From positions 186,001 to 250,000 of the forward strand of contig NZ_JASJEX010000004.1 in the NCBI RefSeq assembly GCF_030067705.1: 64,000 bases of DNA, read 5' to 3'. Position 1 is the stretch's first letter, and each line of letters opens with the position of its first letter. Below, piece after piece: positions 28,262-63,826 of this stretch. The position numbers and the translations under genes are program-made. The DNA comes from Kribbibacterium absianum. GTDB lineage: Bacteria > Actinomycetota > Coriobacteriia > Coriobacteriales > Atopobiaceae. The notes beneath the pieces are model-generated. The model did not search any database, had not been told where the DNA came from, and saw only the letters and a program-made list of their open reading frames with translations.

Positions 28262-28503
28262 GCACGTACGCACGTGCGGGGGCTCGGCGCACAAGAACTG
28301 CGCGAGACCGCCTCCCGGCGCGACGGCTCGTGGGGTGGCGCGCTTTGGAGGGGCGAGCTCTGGGGGGGCGCCCTCCCGCCCGCTGCGGACGTGCGCGGAA
28401 TCGATTGTCCGCAAAACTCCCGGGCCGGTTGCGCGGAAATGACGGCCCAGTGGCCTTGTCCTCATGCGTTTCCTACTGTTTTGCCGCAGACATGGGTTGT
28501 GGA

Positions 28504-28541
28504 GAACCGTTTCCCCGCAACTCATTGCGGGGAAACGGTTC
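28504..28541. repeat. 38-nt perfect palindrome between divergent infC and yhhN-like genes
   Basis: Two perfect 17-nt arms (28504-28520 and 28525-28541) flank a 4-nt centre. No T run follows on either side and both neighbouring genes point away, so it does not look like a terminator. It could be an operator or a REP-like element. The rest of 28262-28628 holds nothing else I can name. Confidence 0.7.
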
Positions 28542-28628
28542 CGCGCAAACGACCGGCCGGAACGCGCTGTTTGAAGTCCCCCGTTTCCTGTGCCACCATC
28601 CTGTGCCAACCGTAGGGAGGGGTGCACT

Positions 28629-30861: not shown

Positions 30862-31315
30862 GACTTGTGCGGAGCGCAGGTTCGCTTTTCCGATCGGGGC
30901 AACCTATGCGGCGCTTGTCTAGGCTGGATCGGAAAGGCCGACTTGTGCGGCGCGTATCTCGGTTTCCCCGACTAGGAGAACCTGTGCGGCGCACATAGCC
31001 CGCCATTCGTCCCATGCCACGCACAGGTTCGCTTTTCCGATCGGGACAACCTGTGCGACGCGCAGTGTTCGGACACAGTCTCGTGCCGCGCACAGGTTCG
31101 CGCACCCTTATCGAGGCAACCTGTGCGGCGCACGTCTAGGCCGGATCGGAAAATCCGACTTGTGCGGCGCATGTCTCGGCCACGCCGGCTGAGAGGACCT
31201 GTGCCACGCGCAGGGCCCGCAAGTCGTCCCATGCCGCGCACGGGTTCGCTTTTCCGATCAACGCGATCTGTGCGGCGCACACGTTCCAGGCTCCAACCTG
31301 CGCCCTGCACAGGTC
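30862..31315. repeat. Intergenic array of a short palindromic motif
   Basis: About 12-13 copies of a 14-18-nt core resembling CCTGTGCGGCGCAC occur every 32-40 bp in both orientations, for example near 30863, 30903, 30942, 30981, 31050, 31120, 31159 and 31198, with inverted copies near 31013, 31082 and 31230. The intervening sequence also recurs, as TTCGCTTTTCCGATC or its complement. Copies are imperfect, so this is not a CRISPR array. Open frames across it are by-products of the repeats; I see no gene in 30847-31444. Confidence 0.85.
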
Positions 31316-31444
31316 GCTTGCGACTCCACTCGGGCGCCCTCGCCCAGCGGGGGTTCACAGCCGGTTCGACATTCCAGCTTTGTTACAGGCGCGAAATGTT
31401 CGGCCGATGCGCGATACACTGGCAACAGGAACTGCACACGCGCG

Positions 31445-58094: not shown

Positions 58095-59357
58095 CTAGAA
58101 CCCTGCGCGCAGCACGATCTTGTCGGCGTCGCCGGTCTGGCCTGGCTTGATGACCACCTCGCCCTGGTGGATCGCCTTCACCGGGCACACCAGGTTGCAG
58201 AGCTGGCAGCCGACGCACTTGTCGTGGTCGCAGCTGGGCCTTCTGGTCTCGTCGTTCCAGACCATGGCCTGGTGCGCGCCGTCATAGCAGCTGATCACGC
58301 AGCGGCCGCAGCCCACGCAGACGTCCTCGTCGATCTCTGGGTACACCACGTAGCTGCGGTCGAGGTCCTCGGCGGGGATGATGTTCGCGTTGGCCAGGCC
58401 CACCAGCTCGCTCAGATGGTGCACGCCCTGGCTCCTCAGGTAGTGCTCGAGGCCGTCGATCATGTCCTCGACCACGCGGTAGCCGTACTGCATGACGGCG
58501 GTGGTCACCTGCAGCGTCGTCGCGCCGACGAGAAGGTACTCGGCCGCGTCGATCCAGGTCTCGATGCCGCCGATGCCCGAGATGGGCACGTCCTTGAGGT
58601 CCGGGTCGTCGCGCATCTGCTGGATGAACCGCAGGCCGATGGGCTTCACGGCCTTGCCGGAGTAGCCGCTGATCGACGACTTGCCGTCCACGATGGGCAG
58701 CCCCACGTGCTGCTCCAGGTCGATGTTGGTGATGGACTTCACCGTGTTGATGGCAGAGATGGCGTCCGCGCCGCCGCGCACGCAGGCCTTGGCGGGCACG
58801 CACATGTCGGTGATGTTCGGGGTCATCTTGGCGATGACGGGCAGCGTCGTCCCGCGCTTCACAGCCGCCGTGTACCGCTCGCAGAGCTCGGGGTTCTGGC
58901 CGGTGTCGGAGCCCATCGCGTGGCTCGTCATCTGCGGGCACGAGAGGTTCATCTCGAGCATGTCCGCGCCGGCCTCGGTGGCCCTGCGCGCGATCTCGGT
59001 CCAGTCCGCTTCGGAGGAGGCCATGATCGACGCGATGAGCACCTTGTGCGGGAACTCGGCCTTGAGGCGCCGAATGTCGGCGAGGTCCTGGTCCAGCGGG
59101 TGCTCGGCGATCTGCTCCATGTTCTTGAAGCCCACGAACGGCGTGCACTCCTTTTGGAGCTGGTCGAAGCGCGGCGACACCTCGTTCACCACGAAGCTGT
59201 CGAGGTGCAGCGTCTTGTACACGACGCCGGCCCAACCCGTGCGGTAGGCCTTGGCGCACATGTCGTAGCAGTTGCCCACCGGCGAGGAGGACAGGCAGAA
59301 GGGGTTCTCAAAGTGAACGCCCAAAAAGTCGACCGAGAGGTCCTCGTGCTGCTTCAT
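58095..59357 (-). CDS. preA: NAD-dependent dihydropyrimidine dehydrogenase subunit PreA
   Basis: The 420-residue protein closely follows E. coli PreA. It has a DHOD-like FMN barrel with [58 protein letters not shown], and [10 protein letters not shown] for FMN phosphate. A C-terminal ferredoxin domain has [11 protein letters not shown] and [11 protein letters not shown], the two [4Fe-4S] clusters. With PreT it reduces uracil and thymine to dihydro forms; gut bacteria with preTA can inactivate 5-fluorouracil. ATG 59357 follows the preT stop by one base. It is the second gene of the operon. Confidence 0.96.
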
Positions 59358-59358
59358 G

Positions 59359-60615
59359 CTACTCGCCCCCCTTCGTGAGGAACTCGTCGATGGCCTGGGC
59401 GGCCTCCTTGCCCTTGCGGACCGCCCACACCACGGTCTTGTCGCCTTGGGCGATGTCGCCCGTGACGAACACGCGCGGGTCCTTGGTGGCGGGCCCCGCC
59501 GTGGCAACCTCGTTGCCGTGCATCGCCACGTCGAGGTCGAGCCCGGAGACTTCCACACGCTGGCCCACGGCGCCGATGATGAGGTCGGCCGTGATGGTGA
59601 GCGTGGCGTCGAGGACGCGGTGCTTGAAGGTGACGGTGCCGTCGTGCGCCTCGACCGGCACGTAGCCGTCGATCAACGTGACGCCGGCCGCCTGCGCGCC
59701 CCGCAACTCCTCCTGGGAGCACAGGAACTCGCAGCTCTGCTCGTAGATGACGTCCGTGACGTTGGCCACGCCCATGCGCTTGAGGGAGGTCGAGACGTCC
59801 ATGGCGACGTCGCCGCCGCCGATGACGAGCACGTTGGCCGGCAGGTCCATCGTGCCCTTGCTCGTGCGGGCGAGGTCGAGGAACTCGAGTGCGCTCACAT
59901 GGCGCGGGTCGTCCTTCAGGACCGGCAGCACGAAGGGCTTCTGGAAGCCCGGGTCGACGAGGACCGCGTCGTACCTCTCGAGCAGGTCGCGCATCGAGCA
60001 GTGGTCCCCCTCGACGTCGTCGGAGGTGACCTCGAAGTCGCAGGTGATCGTCACGCCGAGACCCACGATGCGGTCGATCTCGCGGGCGACGACGTCGTCG
60101 GGCAGACGGTAGGCCGGGATGCCATGAGCGAGCATGCCACCCGGTGTGGACCGGCGCTCGAAGACGTCGACGACATGGCCGGCCTCGCGGAGACGGGCGG
60201 CCGCAGTGAGGCCGGCAGGGCCAGAGCCCACGATGGCGACCTTCTTGCCCGTGTCGGCGCCCGGCTCCATGACCTCGAGGTTGATGGCGGCCTCGTAGTC
60301 GGTGGCATAGCGCTGGAGGCCACCGATGTCGATGGGACGGTCGATGCCGGACCGGGAGCACCCGCGCTGGCAGTAGCGTTCCGTGGGGCACACGCGGGCG
60401 CAGACGGCACCGAACGGGTTGTTCTCGCGGATGGTCTCCGCAGCGCCCTCGGTGTTGAGGAACCGGATCGAGCGGATGAACCTCCCGGGATCCGTTCCGG
60501 CCGGACAGTCCTGGCTACAAGGGGCGTCGAGGCACAACAGGCACCGCGACGCCTCCTCCATGGCAGTGGCGGGAGTGTACGCGCACTTCCACTCGGTCTC
60601 GTAGAGTCCTTGCAT
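59359..60615 (-). CDS. preT: NAD-dependent dihydropyrimidine dehydrogenase subunit PreT
   Basis: The 418-residue protein matches PreT and the GltD-like domain of eukaryotic DPD. N-terminal Fe-S ligands are in [13 protein letters not shown] and [15 protein letters not shown], then FAD-binding [17 protein letters not shown]-binding [12 protein letters not shown] and [13 protein letters not shown] at the end. It takes electrons from NAD(P)H and passes them to PreA. The ATG has GGAAGG 6 nt upstream. A 14-bp palindrome at 60637-60650 just upstream may regulate the operon. No hydantoinase or beta-ureidopropionase gene is adjacent, so only the first step is encoded here. Confidence 0.95.
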
Positions 60616-60650: not shown

Positions 60651-60849
60651 AACAGGGGGATGCCTACAGGTCAAAGCTGCCCTGCCGTGCCTTTGGCCAT
60701 GCTTCAAGTCTGTCAGCGGTGGCGGTGCGCGGATAAACGGCGCAACTACGTTAGGACAGGTTTACTGGCCGTCGTCTGGCGCCGCGCATTTCACGACAGC
60801 AAAGGTGGGCTCCGGACGTGCGGAATAGCGGGTTTCTCGGGACATGCCG

Positions 60850-61262
60850 GACAAGGGCCCATCGCGCGTGCGGGATGCGGGGTTTCACGGCGGCGTGGCC
60901 GATAGAGCCGCATTGTGCGCGCAGGATGCGATGTTTCCTGGCTACGCGACCGATAAGCTCGCATTGCGCGCGCAGAATGCCAGCAAATCCGGCGTGAGGG
61001 GGCTGCGGCGCCACAGAACCTGGCACCCAGCCCAATAAGCCCGCATTATGCGTGCAGGATGCGGGCAAACCTGGCGGCCTGACGGAAAAGGCCGCATTGT
61101 GCGCGCAGGATGCGGGGTTTCTCGACCACGTGCCAGACAAGACGCAGCCTGTCCGGCGGTGTCATGGCGCCCTGCCGGAAAAGCTCGCATTGCGCGCGCA
61201 GGCTGGAGGCAAACCCGTCGGCGTGGCCGATAGGACCCCGTCTTGCGCGCAAAATGGGAGCA
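60850..61262. repeat. 51-bp-period repeat array downstream of the CAP/ChW gene
   Basis: Copies of a ~21-nt core (CGCATTGTGCGCGCAGGATG and variants) begin near 60909, 60960, 61042, 61093 and 61186, with worn copies near 60862 and 61239. Spacing is 51, 82, 51 and 93 bp. Segments 60889-60930 (42 nt) and 60911-60953 (43 nt) recur exactly in the array at 63400-63787. Frames stay open because 51 is a multiple of 3 and the units lack stops; I do not consider them genes. Confidence 0.85.
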
Positions 61263-61296
61263 AACCCGGCTCGGGAGCTCGCTGCCCCGCTGCGCG

Positions 61297-63165
61297 CTAC
61301 TTCTGATAGAAGGCCTTCGCGGTGGACCCCGGCGCGCTCGAACCCTTTGGGAGCACCTTTATCTGGATGCCCTCCAAGCGCTTGCCGTAGCCGGCGCTGC
61401 CGCATTTGGCGCCGTTCTGAGCCCAGCCGGTCCAACCAAAGGTCTGGCAATGGACGCGATAGTACACGTCGTACCGCTTGGCTAGCTCGCCGGTCAGCTT
61501 GATCTGCACCGCCTCGAGACGTTTGGACCGGCCGGACGTCCCGACAAGGCCACCCTCGGGCACCCAGTCCCTCCAGCCGTAGGTCTGCACATGTGCGTTG
61601 GCTTGAATCGAGCCAGAGAACGGCGCGTTCACGAGCTTGACCTTGATGGCCTCAAGTCGCTTGGCCTTTCCCTCGGTACCAGCCGTTGCGCCGTTCTGCA
61701 CCCAATCCATCCACCCAAAAGTCTGAGCGTGAGCCTGATAGGTCACGGTCACCGGAGCATAGTAGACGCTGTCGGTCTTGCCGGGAGCGGCCTGCCCCTT
61801 GGGCACCAGCTTCACCTGAAGCCCTTCGAGGCGCTTCGACATGCCCTCTGACCCGCAAGACGCACCGTTCTTGGCCCACCCAGTCCAGCCGAAGGACTGC
61901 ACGTGCGTGCGATAGTAGACGTCATAGAGCTTCTCCAACTCGCCGGTCAGCTGGATCTGCACTGCTTCGAGACGCTTGGACTGTCCGCTCGTGCCAGCGA
62001 GGGTGTCGGGCCCAACCCAATCCTGCCAGCCGTAAGTCTGCACATGCGTGCGGATCCGGACGTTCTTGCTCAACGAATCCGGCAGGTTCTCCAACCTGAT
62101 GTTCACAGCCTCCAAGCGCTTGGACTCCCCGACGGTGCCGGCCGTGGCGCCATCTTTGACCCAGCTCATCCACCCGTAGCTTTGAGCATGGGCGCGATAG
62201 GTCACGGACGGCTTCGGCACTGTCCACGTGTTGCTCACGCTCCGGCCGGACGGCAGCGTGCCGGTGACCTTGACCGTGCCCGGGGACTTGGCCGTCACAA
62301 CGCCCTTGGCATCCACCGTTGCGACCGCGTTGTTGGAACTGGTCCACGTCACGCACGAAGGGTCGATGCGCGCATACGTGTTGAGGCCGTCGACGGTGCC
62401 AATGCCATACTCGTGCTGAAACGTGTCCCCGATCCGCAGTGTGGACAGGTATACCCCGGGGTCCATGTTGAGGTTGAGACCCTGAGACGTGCCGCAGACG
62501 TCGTAGCTCAGCTCGACAGACCGGGTAACGGTCTTCGCGCTCGTCGCCGCACTCGCAGAAGACGAGCCGCTGCTGAAGCACTGGACCCAATAGATCGGAT
62601 TCCCGGTCCAGCTGAAGCAGCCGACACCGATGGATTTGTAGCTGGCATTGAGGATATTGCCTCGGTGGCCAGGACTCTCCATCCAACCCTTCACGACGGC
62701 CTGGGCAGTGCCGTATCCGGCGGCGATGTTCTCTCCCATGCCGTAGTACGCGTGACTCTCCGGCCACGCGGTGAAGCAACCGGCACCGTTCGGTCGGTCG
62801 TGCGAGAACAAGAACCACAACTCAGCGCTGCGCTGCATCGCCGTATCGGTCAAAGCCGCGTCGAGCACGAGCGGGGCGACGCCGACAGCCGCACGCTCCC
62901 TGTTGACGAGCGCGACGACCTCCTGTGCCACGTTGTACAGGTCTTTGCCGGTCATCTTGACGGTCTCGTTTGCGCCGATAGCGGCCGGCGCGGGAATCGC
63001 AGCCGGGTCCTCGGTCGCAAGAGCCTCGCCGAGGCTGGTGGTAGCCCCGGGTTCCCCGATCCAGCCTTCCTCGGCCACCGCTATGCGTGGGGTCGCGGCC
63101 ACGATTACCGCCAAAGCGATAGCCCAGAGGCCACTTAGGAAACGAATGGACACGTGCTTTCGCAT
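61297..63165 (-). CDS. Secreted CAP-domain protein with Big2 domain and six ChW repeats
   Basis: The 622-residue protein has a Sec signal peptide (about 1-31, cleavage after AVA). A CAP/SCP domain (~75-200) follows with FSHDRPNG, GMGENIAAGY and WMESPGHRGNIL, including the paired His and Glu residues of the cavity. A Big2-like domain (~235-315) has the WTSSNNAVATVDAKGVVTA pattern. Six ChW repeats (~321-610) follow, each with FGW/YGW, W and KRLE. Repeats 1-3 and 4-6 match as two triads. ChW repeats are thought to bind cell wall or host surfaces. ATG 63165 (GAGAGG at 7 nt) is chosen over GTG 63180. Both flanks carry 51-bp repeat arrays. Confidence 0.9.
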   Translation of the reverse strand: MRKHVSIRFLSGLWAIALAVIVAATPRIAVAEEGWIGEPGATTSLGEALATEDPAAIPAPAAIGANETVKMTGKDLYNVAQEVVALVNRERAAVGVAPLVLDAALTDTAMQRSAELWFLFSHDRPNGAGCFTAWPESHAYYGMGENIAAGYGTAQAVVKGWMESPGHRGNILNASYKSIGVGCFSWTGNPIYWVQCFSSGSSSASAATSAKTVTRSVELSYDVCGTSQGLNLNMDPGVYLSTLRIGDTFQHEYGIGTVDGLNTYARIDPSCVTWTSSNNAVATVDAKGVVTAKSPGTVKVTGTLPSGRSVSNTWTVPKPSVTYRAHAQSYGWMSWVKDGATAGTVGESKRLEAVNIRLENLPDSLSKNVRIRTHVQTYGWQDWVGPDTLAGTSGQSKRLEAVQIQLTGELEKLYDVYYRTHVQSFGWTGWAKNGASCGSEGMSKRLEGLQVKLVPKGQAAPGKTDSVYYAPVTVTYQAHAQTFGWMDWVQNGATAGTEGKAKRLEAIKVKLVNAPFSGSIQANAHVQTYGWRDWVPEGGLVGTSGRSKRLEAVQIKLTGELAKRYDVYYRVHCQTFGWTGWAQNGAKCGSAGYGKRLEGIQIKVLPKGSSAPGSTAKAFYQK

Positions 63166-63201
63166 CTCACATCCTCTCACGAAACTATTTCAAGCTTCGT
63201 C

Positions 63202-63246
63202 ATGGTACCTGAGGCGCGCTTTAACTCAAATCGACATCTCGAGATG
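63202..63246 (-). promoter_or_regulatory. Promoter and adjacent palindrome of the CAP/ChW gene
   Basis: TTGAGT (63224-63229) and TACCAT (63202-63207) are 16 bp apart on the minus strand, 37 bp upstream of ATG 63165. A perfect 12-bp palindrome CATCTCGAGATG (63235-63246) lies directly upstream of the -35, a suitable operator site. Confidence 0.5.
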
Positions 63247-63399
63247 AATTGGCGAACGATACGCATCGGCAGGCACAACCGTCAGCGACGGGCCATGGAG
63301 GGTCAAGTCTACTGGCTGCCATCTGGGGTCAAGCATCTCGTGGCCGCGAAGGCGGGAGGCGCCGAGCAACGGAGTTCTCAGTGCGTACCGGATGAGGCC

Positions 63400-63787
63400 C
63401 CCATCCTGCGTGCGGGATGCGAGGTTTTCTGGCGGCGTGGCCGATAGAGCCGCATTGTGCGCGCAGGATGCGCGAAAAACCGGCGGCCTGACGGATAAGC
63501 TCTCATTGTGCGCGGTATGCCGGCAAAAGCCGGCGCGAGGGGGCCGCAGCGCCACAGAACTCGGCACCCGGTCCGAAAAGCTCTCAGTGTGCGCGCAGGA
63601 TGCGCGAAAACCCGGCGGCCTGACGGATAAGCTCTCATTGTGCGCGCAGGATGCGATGTTTCCTGGCTACGCGACCGAAAAGCTCGCATTGTGCACGCGG
63701 GATGTCAGCAAACCCGGCACGACGAGCCCGCCGCGCCACAAAACCCCGCATCGCGCTCGCAGGATGCGGAGTCTCCCGGCAACATGC
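63400..63787. repeat. 51-bp-period repeat array upstream of the CAP/ChW gene
   Basis: Cores like CGCATTGTGCGCGCAGGATG begin near 63451, 63502, 63583, 63634, 63685 and 63747, spaced 51, 81, 51, 51 and 62 bp. The order 51-81-51 parallels the array at 60850-61262. Segment 63431-63472 is identical to 60889-60930, and 63636-63678 to 60911-60953. No gene was supported in 63247-63826. Confidence 0.85.
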
Positions 63788-63826
63788 CGCATGAGAACAT
63801 CGCCCGTCGCGCCGTGCTTCTAGCCT

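Follow-up and report, generated by a model that had tools for sequence, protein, structure and literature searches.

Repeat arrays flanking a secreted-protein gene of Kribbibacterium absianum are probably gene-less copies of palindromes that bracket a nuclease-like gene

Our analyses indicate, with a probability that we put at about 0.7, that the two repeat arrays on either side of a CAP/ChW secreted-protein gene of Kribbibacterium absianum (A1 and A2, Table 1) are solo copies, without a gene, of a private palindrome that spreads by a palindrome-templated route and whose cognate gene, located elsewhere in the genome, codes for a nuclease-like protein. The arrays belong to a 64-kb stretch of DNA, hereafter the window, within which three private palindrome families are represented.

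Table 1. Repeat features and associated genes; coordinates without a prefix are window positions
Feature	Coordinates	Strand	Details
Array A1	60808..61284	.	~9 phased ~46-bp palindromic sites, family 1; core GCATCCTGCGCGCAGGATGC; half-site GCCCGAWARSCYCGCATYNYGCG
Array A2	63388..63790	.	~7 family-1 sites; orientation as A1
CAP/Big_2/six-ChW secreted-protein gene	61297..63180	minus	between A1 and A2
Wider linker of A1 (82-bp step)	60985..61036	.	holds CTGCGGCGCCACAGAACCTGG; A2 counterpart ~63525-63577; direct reading
Family-2 array	30865..31330	.	13 odd palindromes CCTGTGCGGCGCACAGG; spacing 30/39/40 bp
Third-family module	28391..28548	.	TTGCGGRGAAMCGTTTCYCCRCAA; family gene C2:155227-156237
Family-1 cognate gene	C1:478478-479596 (L144:8479-9597)		~340 aa; family-1 palindromes both sides
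Family gene of G020	C1:48048-49088		palindrome CACCCGYAGAANNTTCTRCGGGTG

As the first-pass annotation had recognized, A1 and A2 are homologous and lie in the same orientation around the CAP/ChW gene. They align directly at 81% over 265 bp (E = 2e-67), share exact segments of 42 nt (60889-60930 in A1, 63431-63472 in A2) and 43 nt, and have mutually homologous linkers. The gene that they enclose, which codes for a CAP domain, a Big_2 domain and six ChW repeats, has a flank-versus-flank local alignment score of 274, whereas the median of 49 ordinary control genes is 24. Site cores start at 60808 (degenerate), 60859, 60910, 60961, 61043, 61094, 61145 (degenerate), 61187 and 61238 in A1, and at 63401, 63452, 63503 (degenerate), 63584, 63635, 63686 and 63748 in A2. 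The repeat had been described as a 51-bp unit; a spacing of 51 bp does occur, but it is a period, and the unit itself is a palindromic site of ~46 bp. Likewise, the parallel spacing of 51, 81-82 and 51 bp proposed for the two arrays gives way to a broader set of periods, with 51, 61, 62, 82 and 93 bp all occurring. The wider linker bearing CTGCGGCGCCACAGAACCTGG in each array is a possible module core. A CRISPR array was also considered and rejected: the units are divergent and palindromic, and the linkers of A1 and A2 are homologous, not unique spacers. A PreA/PreT-like dihydropyrimidine dehydrogenase gene pair (58095-60615) adjoins A1; just 3 of the 101 genomes of the family carry its PreT-like gene, which, because of this rarity, may have been horizontally acquired. 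Most simply, A1 and A2 are two solo family-1 arrays with a bystander CAP/ChW gene between them, and their high similarity suggests a local duplication or gene conversion.

An ungapped alignment of 43 units from the genome defined the family-1 site as a palindrome of ~46 bp whose conserved columns are common to all arrays, with divergent linkers. Its spacings (51, 61/62, 81/82 and 93 bp) follow ~51 + n x 10.5. Across the dyad of these 43 units, Watson-Crick pairs are as frequent as expected from the product of the marginals and no compensatory change occurs; since pair counts equal the expectation for independent columns, the two halves do not appear to be held complementary by selection. This pattern suits two half-sites read by a putative dimeric protein more than it does a hairpin, whether of RNA or of a single DNA strand. 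A matrix trained on A1 and A2 alone and applied to 186 kb of sequence from the same genome matched elsewhere only at C1:429990-430529, C1:478107-478209 together with 479603-480091, and C1:485287-485632, whereas column-permuted matrices used as a control gave 0-1 matches. A pattern search of the whole genome yielded 45 matches (control, 0), and such searches located family-1 sites in A1 and A2 and at C1:430k, C1:478-480k and C1:485k; genome-wide statements in this work refer to such pattern or profile searches. The arrays outside the window adjoin ffh and a DUF188-like gene, pheA-like and aroC genes, and the gene at C1:478-480k, which has arrays on both sides (neighbor gene names come from our reading of their translations). 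In 80 other genomes the family-1 pattern gave only scattered chance or coding matches. A search by unit sequence fails across genera because the private palindromes do not transfer between them.

The first-pass annotation had seen no recombinase in the window: the missing enzyme is the nuclease-family gene at C1:478478, outside it. From its sequence, the encoded protein appears to have two domains, with an EDxHD/Vsr-like nuclease C-terminus. The gene contains one internal in-frame TAG, so that family 1 may no longer be active, or the TAG may be an assembly error. Neither NCBIfam nor PADLOC has a model for this protein family, and no Pfam model scored above cut-off for the two members first tested. 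Genes of the family occur in 75 of the 101 genomes sampled (same family and order), with up to 14 copies per genome and ~10 in the source genome (G000). In an alignment of 38 members, an S-P-x-E motif, GG, N, D, E and H are invariant (S177, P178, E180, G194, G195, N204, D225, E236 and H243), and D252 and R255 are nearly so, the former at 90% or more. The family profile matches PDB 3r3p, an EDxHD homing endonuclease domain that we take to be I-Bth0305I, with E = 3e-4; weak Pfam matches were to MTES_1575 in 18 of the 38 members and to DUF559 in 14, and Y1_Tnp was absent from the Pfam and PDB profile matches. Among 247 genomes of the phylum, strong full-length matches were found only within the order, and weaker, C-terminal ones elsewhere. 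One family member searched for in viral contigs was not found there.

The family genes are accompanied by palindromes of their own. Of the eight examined in the source genome, six are clearly flanked on each side by a palindrome family of their own. Different palindromes lie on both sides of C2:155227 (TTGCGGGGAAACGTTTCCCCGCAA), C1:122391 (TGCAGCAGAAAAACGCTGCA, in 63-bp steps), C3:444084 (GGGGATCA/TGATCCCC type) and C1:128704 (CGGGGCA type). We assessed this association without any choice of motif by comparing the 700-bp upstream and downstream flanks of 45 non-redundant members from many genera. The mean score was 23.7 for mismatched pairs and 87.6 for matched pairs, the latter mean being reached by none of 10,000 permutations (p = 1e-4). 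Flanks of 26 of the 45 members exceeded the 99th percentile of mismatched pairs and 19 had no clearly similar flanks; in family f10 only 2 of 13 members had them. Among the 49 ordinary genes (median, 24), the only two outliers were both members of the nuclease family. Proteins that occupy the same locus and are 72% identical can already have diverged palindromes, and five of seven tested distant relatives, known from the weaker C-terminal matches, have similar palindromes on both sides. In one genome (G011, locus L191), a gene is flanked by two apparently identical direct modules of ~130 bp, whose sequence identity suggests recent movement or conversion.

Dispersed solo modules exist for three palindrome families of the source genome. 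The family-2 array of the window, in which 30- and 39-bp steps alternate, has relatives at C1:302.0k, 303.6k and 339.9k and at C3:320.0-320.5k, and its palindrome, unrelated to that of family 1, flanks both sides of the nuclease-like gene C1:302360-303388, a second member of the protein family. The C2:155227 palindrome is present 64 times in the source genome (control, 0), and the 21 modules extracted have a single layout (palindrome, 28/38 bp, palindrome, core, half palindrome, 28/38 bp, palindrome) with spacings, weak partial matches aside, of only 28, 38/39, 95/96, 105/106, 123 and 133 bp. In another genus (G020), the private palindrome of one member occupies 36 sites spaced by 30, 41 and 71/72 bp and is absent from G033, and in a distant genome (G136) a 58-bp palindrome is present ten times with arms always 43 bp apart, two copies bracketing the gene of a distant relative and eight being solo. 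In four unrelated families, alternative spacings within a class are separated by about one turn of the helix (9-11 bp), a regularity to which we attach no p-value because copies within a family are not independent. The top-ranking 8-mer in the flanks, ACCTGCGG, was not significant after correction. A CCGCAGGT/ACCTGCGG core is seen repeatedly at the center of modules that belong to unrelated families (L249 and, in other genera, L149, L161 and L174), and is possibly a functional core that they share.

The aroB-aroA intergenic region of one genus displays these elements in several states. The gene lies between two similar modules in G086, G114, G035, G112 and G125, and G122 also carries a nuclease-like gene there; G126 has one module and no gene; and at least a dozen genomes, including G002, G109 and G111, have no element. 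The outer edges of the G086 element are marked by a 20-bp direct repeat, GCGGCCGCGTTTCTCGCCTG; the empty site of G002 has the core of this repeat just once. A target-site duplication is clear at this locus only. Each of the two G035 modules, left and right, aligns with the solo module of G126. These states fit an insertion whose gene was later lost when the modules recombined. Alternatively, presence and absence could include ancestral presence followed by repeated loss.

The most serious competing explanation makes the palindromes operator sites, through which AbiEi-like proteins would regulate their own and distant genes, the repeats having spread by ordinary duplication. Half-sites that evolve independently, like protein sites, and that are phased on the helix would suit it, and AbiEi antitoxins autoregulate via multiple inverted repeats (PMC7319586). 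However, palindromes are found on the downstream side of the gene too, and at dozens of unrelated positions between genes; the nuclease residues do not vary, and whole gene-module units are present or absent, so that we regard operators as unlikely. A restriction- or defense-type nuclease whose palindromes serve as self marks or decoys appears still less probable: the EDxHD, MTES_1575 and DUF559 folds are indeed restriction-endonuclease-like, but the lack of a PADLOC match, the many paralogues per genome and the dispersal of private palindromes in the host genome itself argue against this role. RNA hairpins or bidirectional terminators that multiplied would explain why the palindromes sit between genes, and yet the arms of the family-1 units lack compensatory change, an Rfam scan of the 64-kb window gave no match, and the sequence is private to each nuclease paralogue; we give this idea very little credence.

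Equally hard to sustain is the initial proposal that A1 and A2 delimit a surface-protein gene cassette or resemble integron boundaries. It rested on the bracketing of one secreted-protein gene by direct arrays that could delete it, and modules of this repeat system can indeed recombine, with loss of the bracketed gene, as the solo module of G126 attests. In principle, recombination between A1 and A2 could likewise delete the CAP/ChW gene; nothing that we saw shows its occurrence. Nevertheless, family-1 arrays are not confined to the CAP/ChW locus, being found at three other places of the genome beside housekeeping, nuclease-like and other genes unrelated to surface proteins. For the surface-protein part, this is the outcome that the first-pass annotation had itself named as refuting its idea. 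The predicted link with other ChW-protein genes did not appear either: 46 of 48 such genes have no similar flanks, and a search for the array core in 61 loci of ChW relatives had no matches apart from one. The other two ChW genes (L064 and L084) have similar upstream and downstream flanks, with scores of 95 and 40. As for the integron-like boundary, the sites are multi-copy phased arrays next to unrelated genes, unlike attC, and neither integrase nor attC features were found at the loci examined. The surface-protein cassette reading is thus largely refuted, and an integron-like boundary appears very unlikely.

Returning to solo copies of a private palindrome owned by a nuclease-like gene, the most likely course would be one in which a dimer of the protein binds the long palindromes and nicks or cuts the DNA there, with repeat-templated repair or recombination copying modules, sometimes as module-gene-module units, into new intergenic sites; recombination between modules would then delete the gene and leave a solo module. 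Directly observed are the repeat families, the pairing of each with its own gene, the dispersal of solo modules, the presence or absence of elements at one site and the invariant nuclease residues, whereas binding, cleavage and the copying route are inferred. The lack of covariation between half-sites in family 1 is as expected for protein sites, and the length of the palindromes (46-58 bp) matches the target of the EDxHD homing endonuclease I-Bth0305I, which dimerizes on nearly 60 bp (PMC3943268). The likeness to this enzyme, judged by sequence only, extends to the catalytic-domain profile and the conserved E, D, E, H and D (E180, D225, E236, H243 and D252). In contrast, the genes studied here are free-standing, chromosomal and palindrome-bracketed instead of residing in introns, and their putative target recurs on each side of the gene as well as at dispersed sites. 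Closer at hand, the DUF559/MTES_1575 proteins of Actinomycetota have a related C-terminal domain and include the distant relatives with similar flanking palindromes, for which we found no description in open-access papers; they presumably have an AbiEi-like N-terminus, whereas that of the present family differs and has no Pfam domain assigned.

Among known repeats, BOX, ERIC and MITE elements are intergenic, modular, non-coding and dispersed, as are those described here, but here a bracketed gene can be identified for each family, and the sites are phased on the helix. A stronger resemblance is to REPIN-RAYT systems, in which intergenic palindromes are dispersed as small modules, with a linked gene nearby and several independent families (PMC3116915). 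Here too, palindromes found dispersed through the genome also flank the gene. Nonetheless, the enzyme is an EDxHD/Vsr-like nuclease-family protein and not a Y1 HUH transposase like RAYT, up to ~14 paralogues per genome each have private palindromes, and the arrays consist of several phased sites, without half-site covariation in family 1. On balance, though with less assurance than for the origin of A1 and A2, we favor the view that these elements represent an undescribed class of selfish DNA in Actinomycetota, made of EDxHD-nuclease genes, private bracketing palindromes and non-autonomous phased modules. They would parallel REPIN-RAYT without being homologous to it, and a genome would hold several independent systems. 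We found no prior description of an association between such palindromes and nuclease genes in the open-access papers searched.

Intergenic repeats that are otherwise unexplained would thereby gain an owner, and a large, unnamed nuclease family its first testable role. Since the putative recognition sites lie next to each paralogue, genome sequences could supply hundreds of protein-DNA specificity pairs, making the evolution of specificity in long-site nucleases directly testable. The REPIN-RAYT way of life would, moreover, prove to have had more than one origin.
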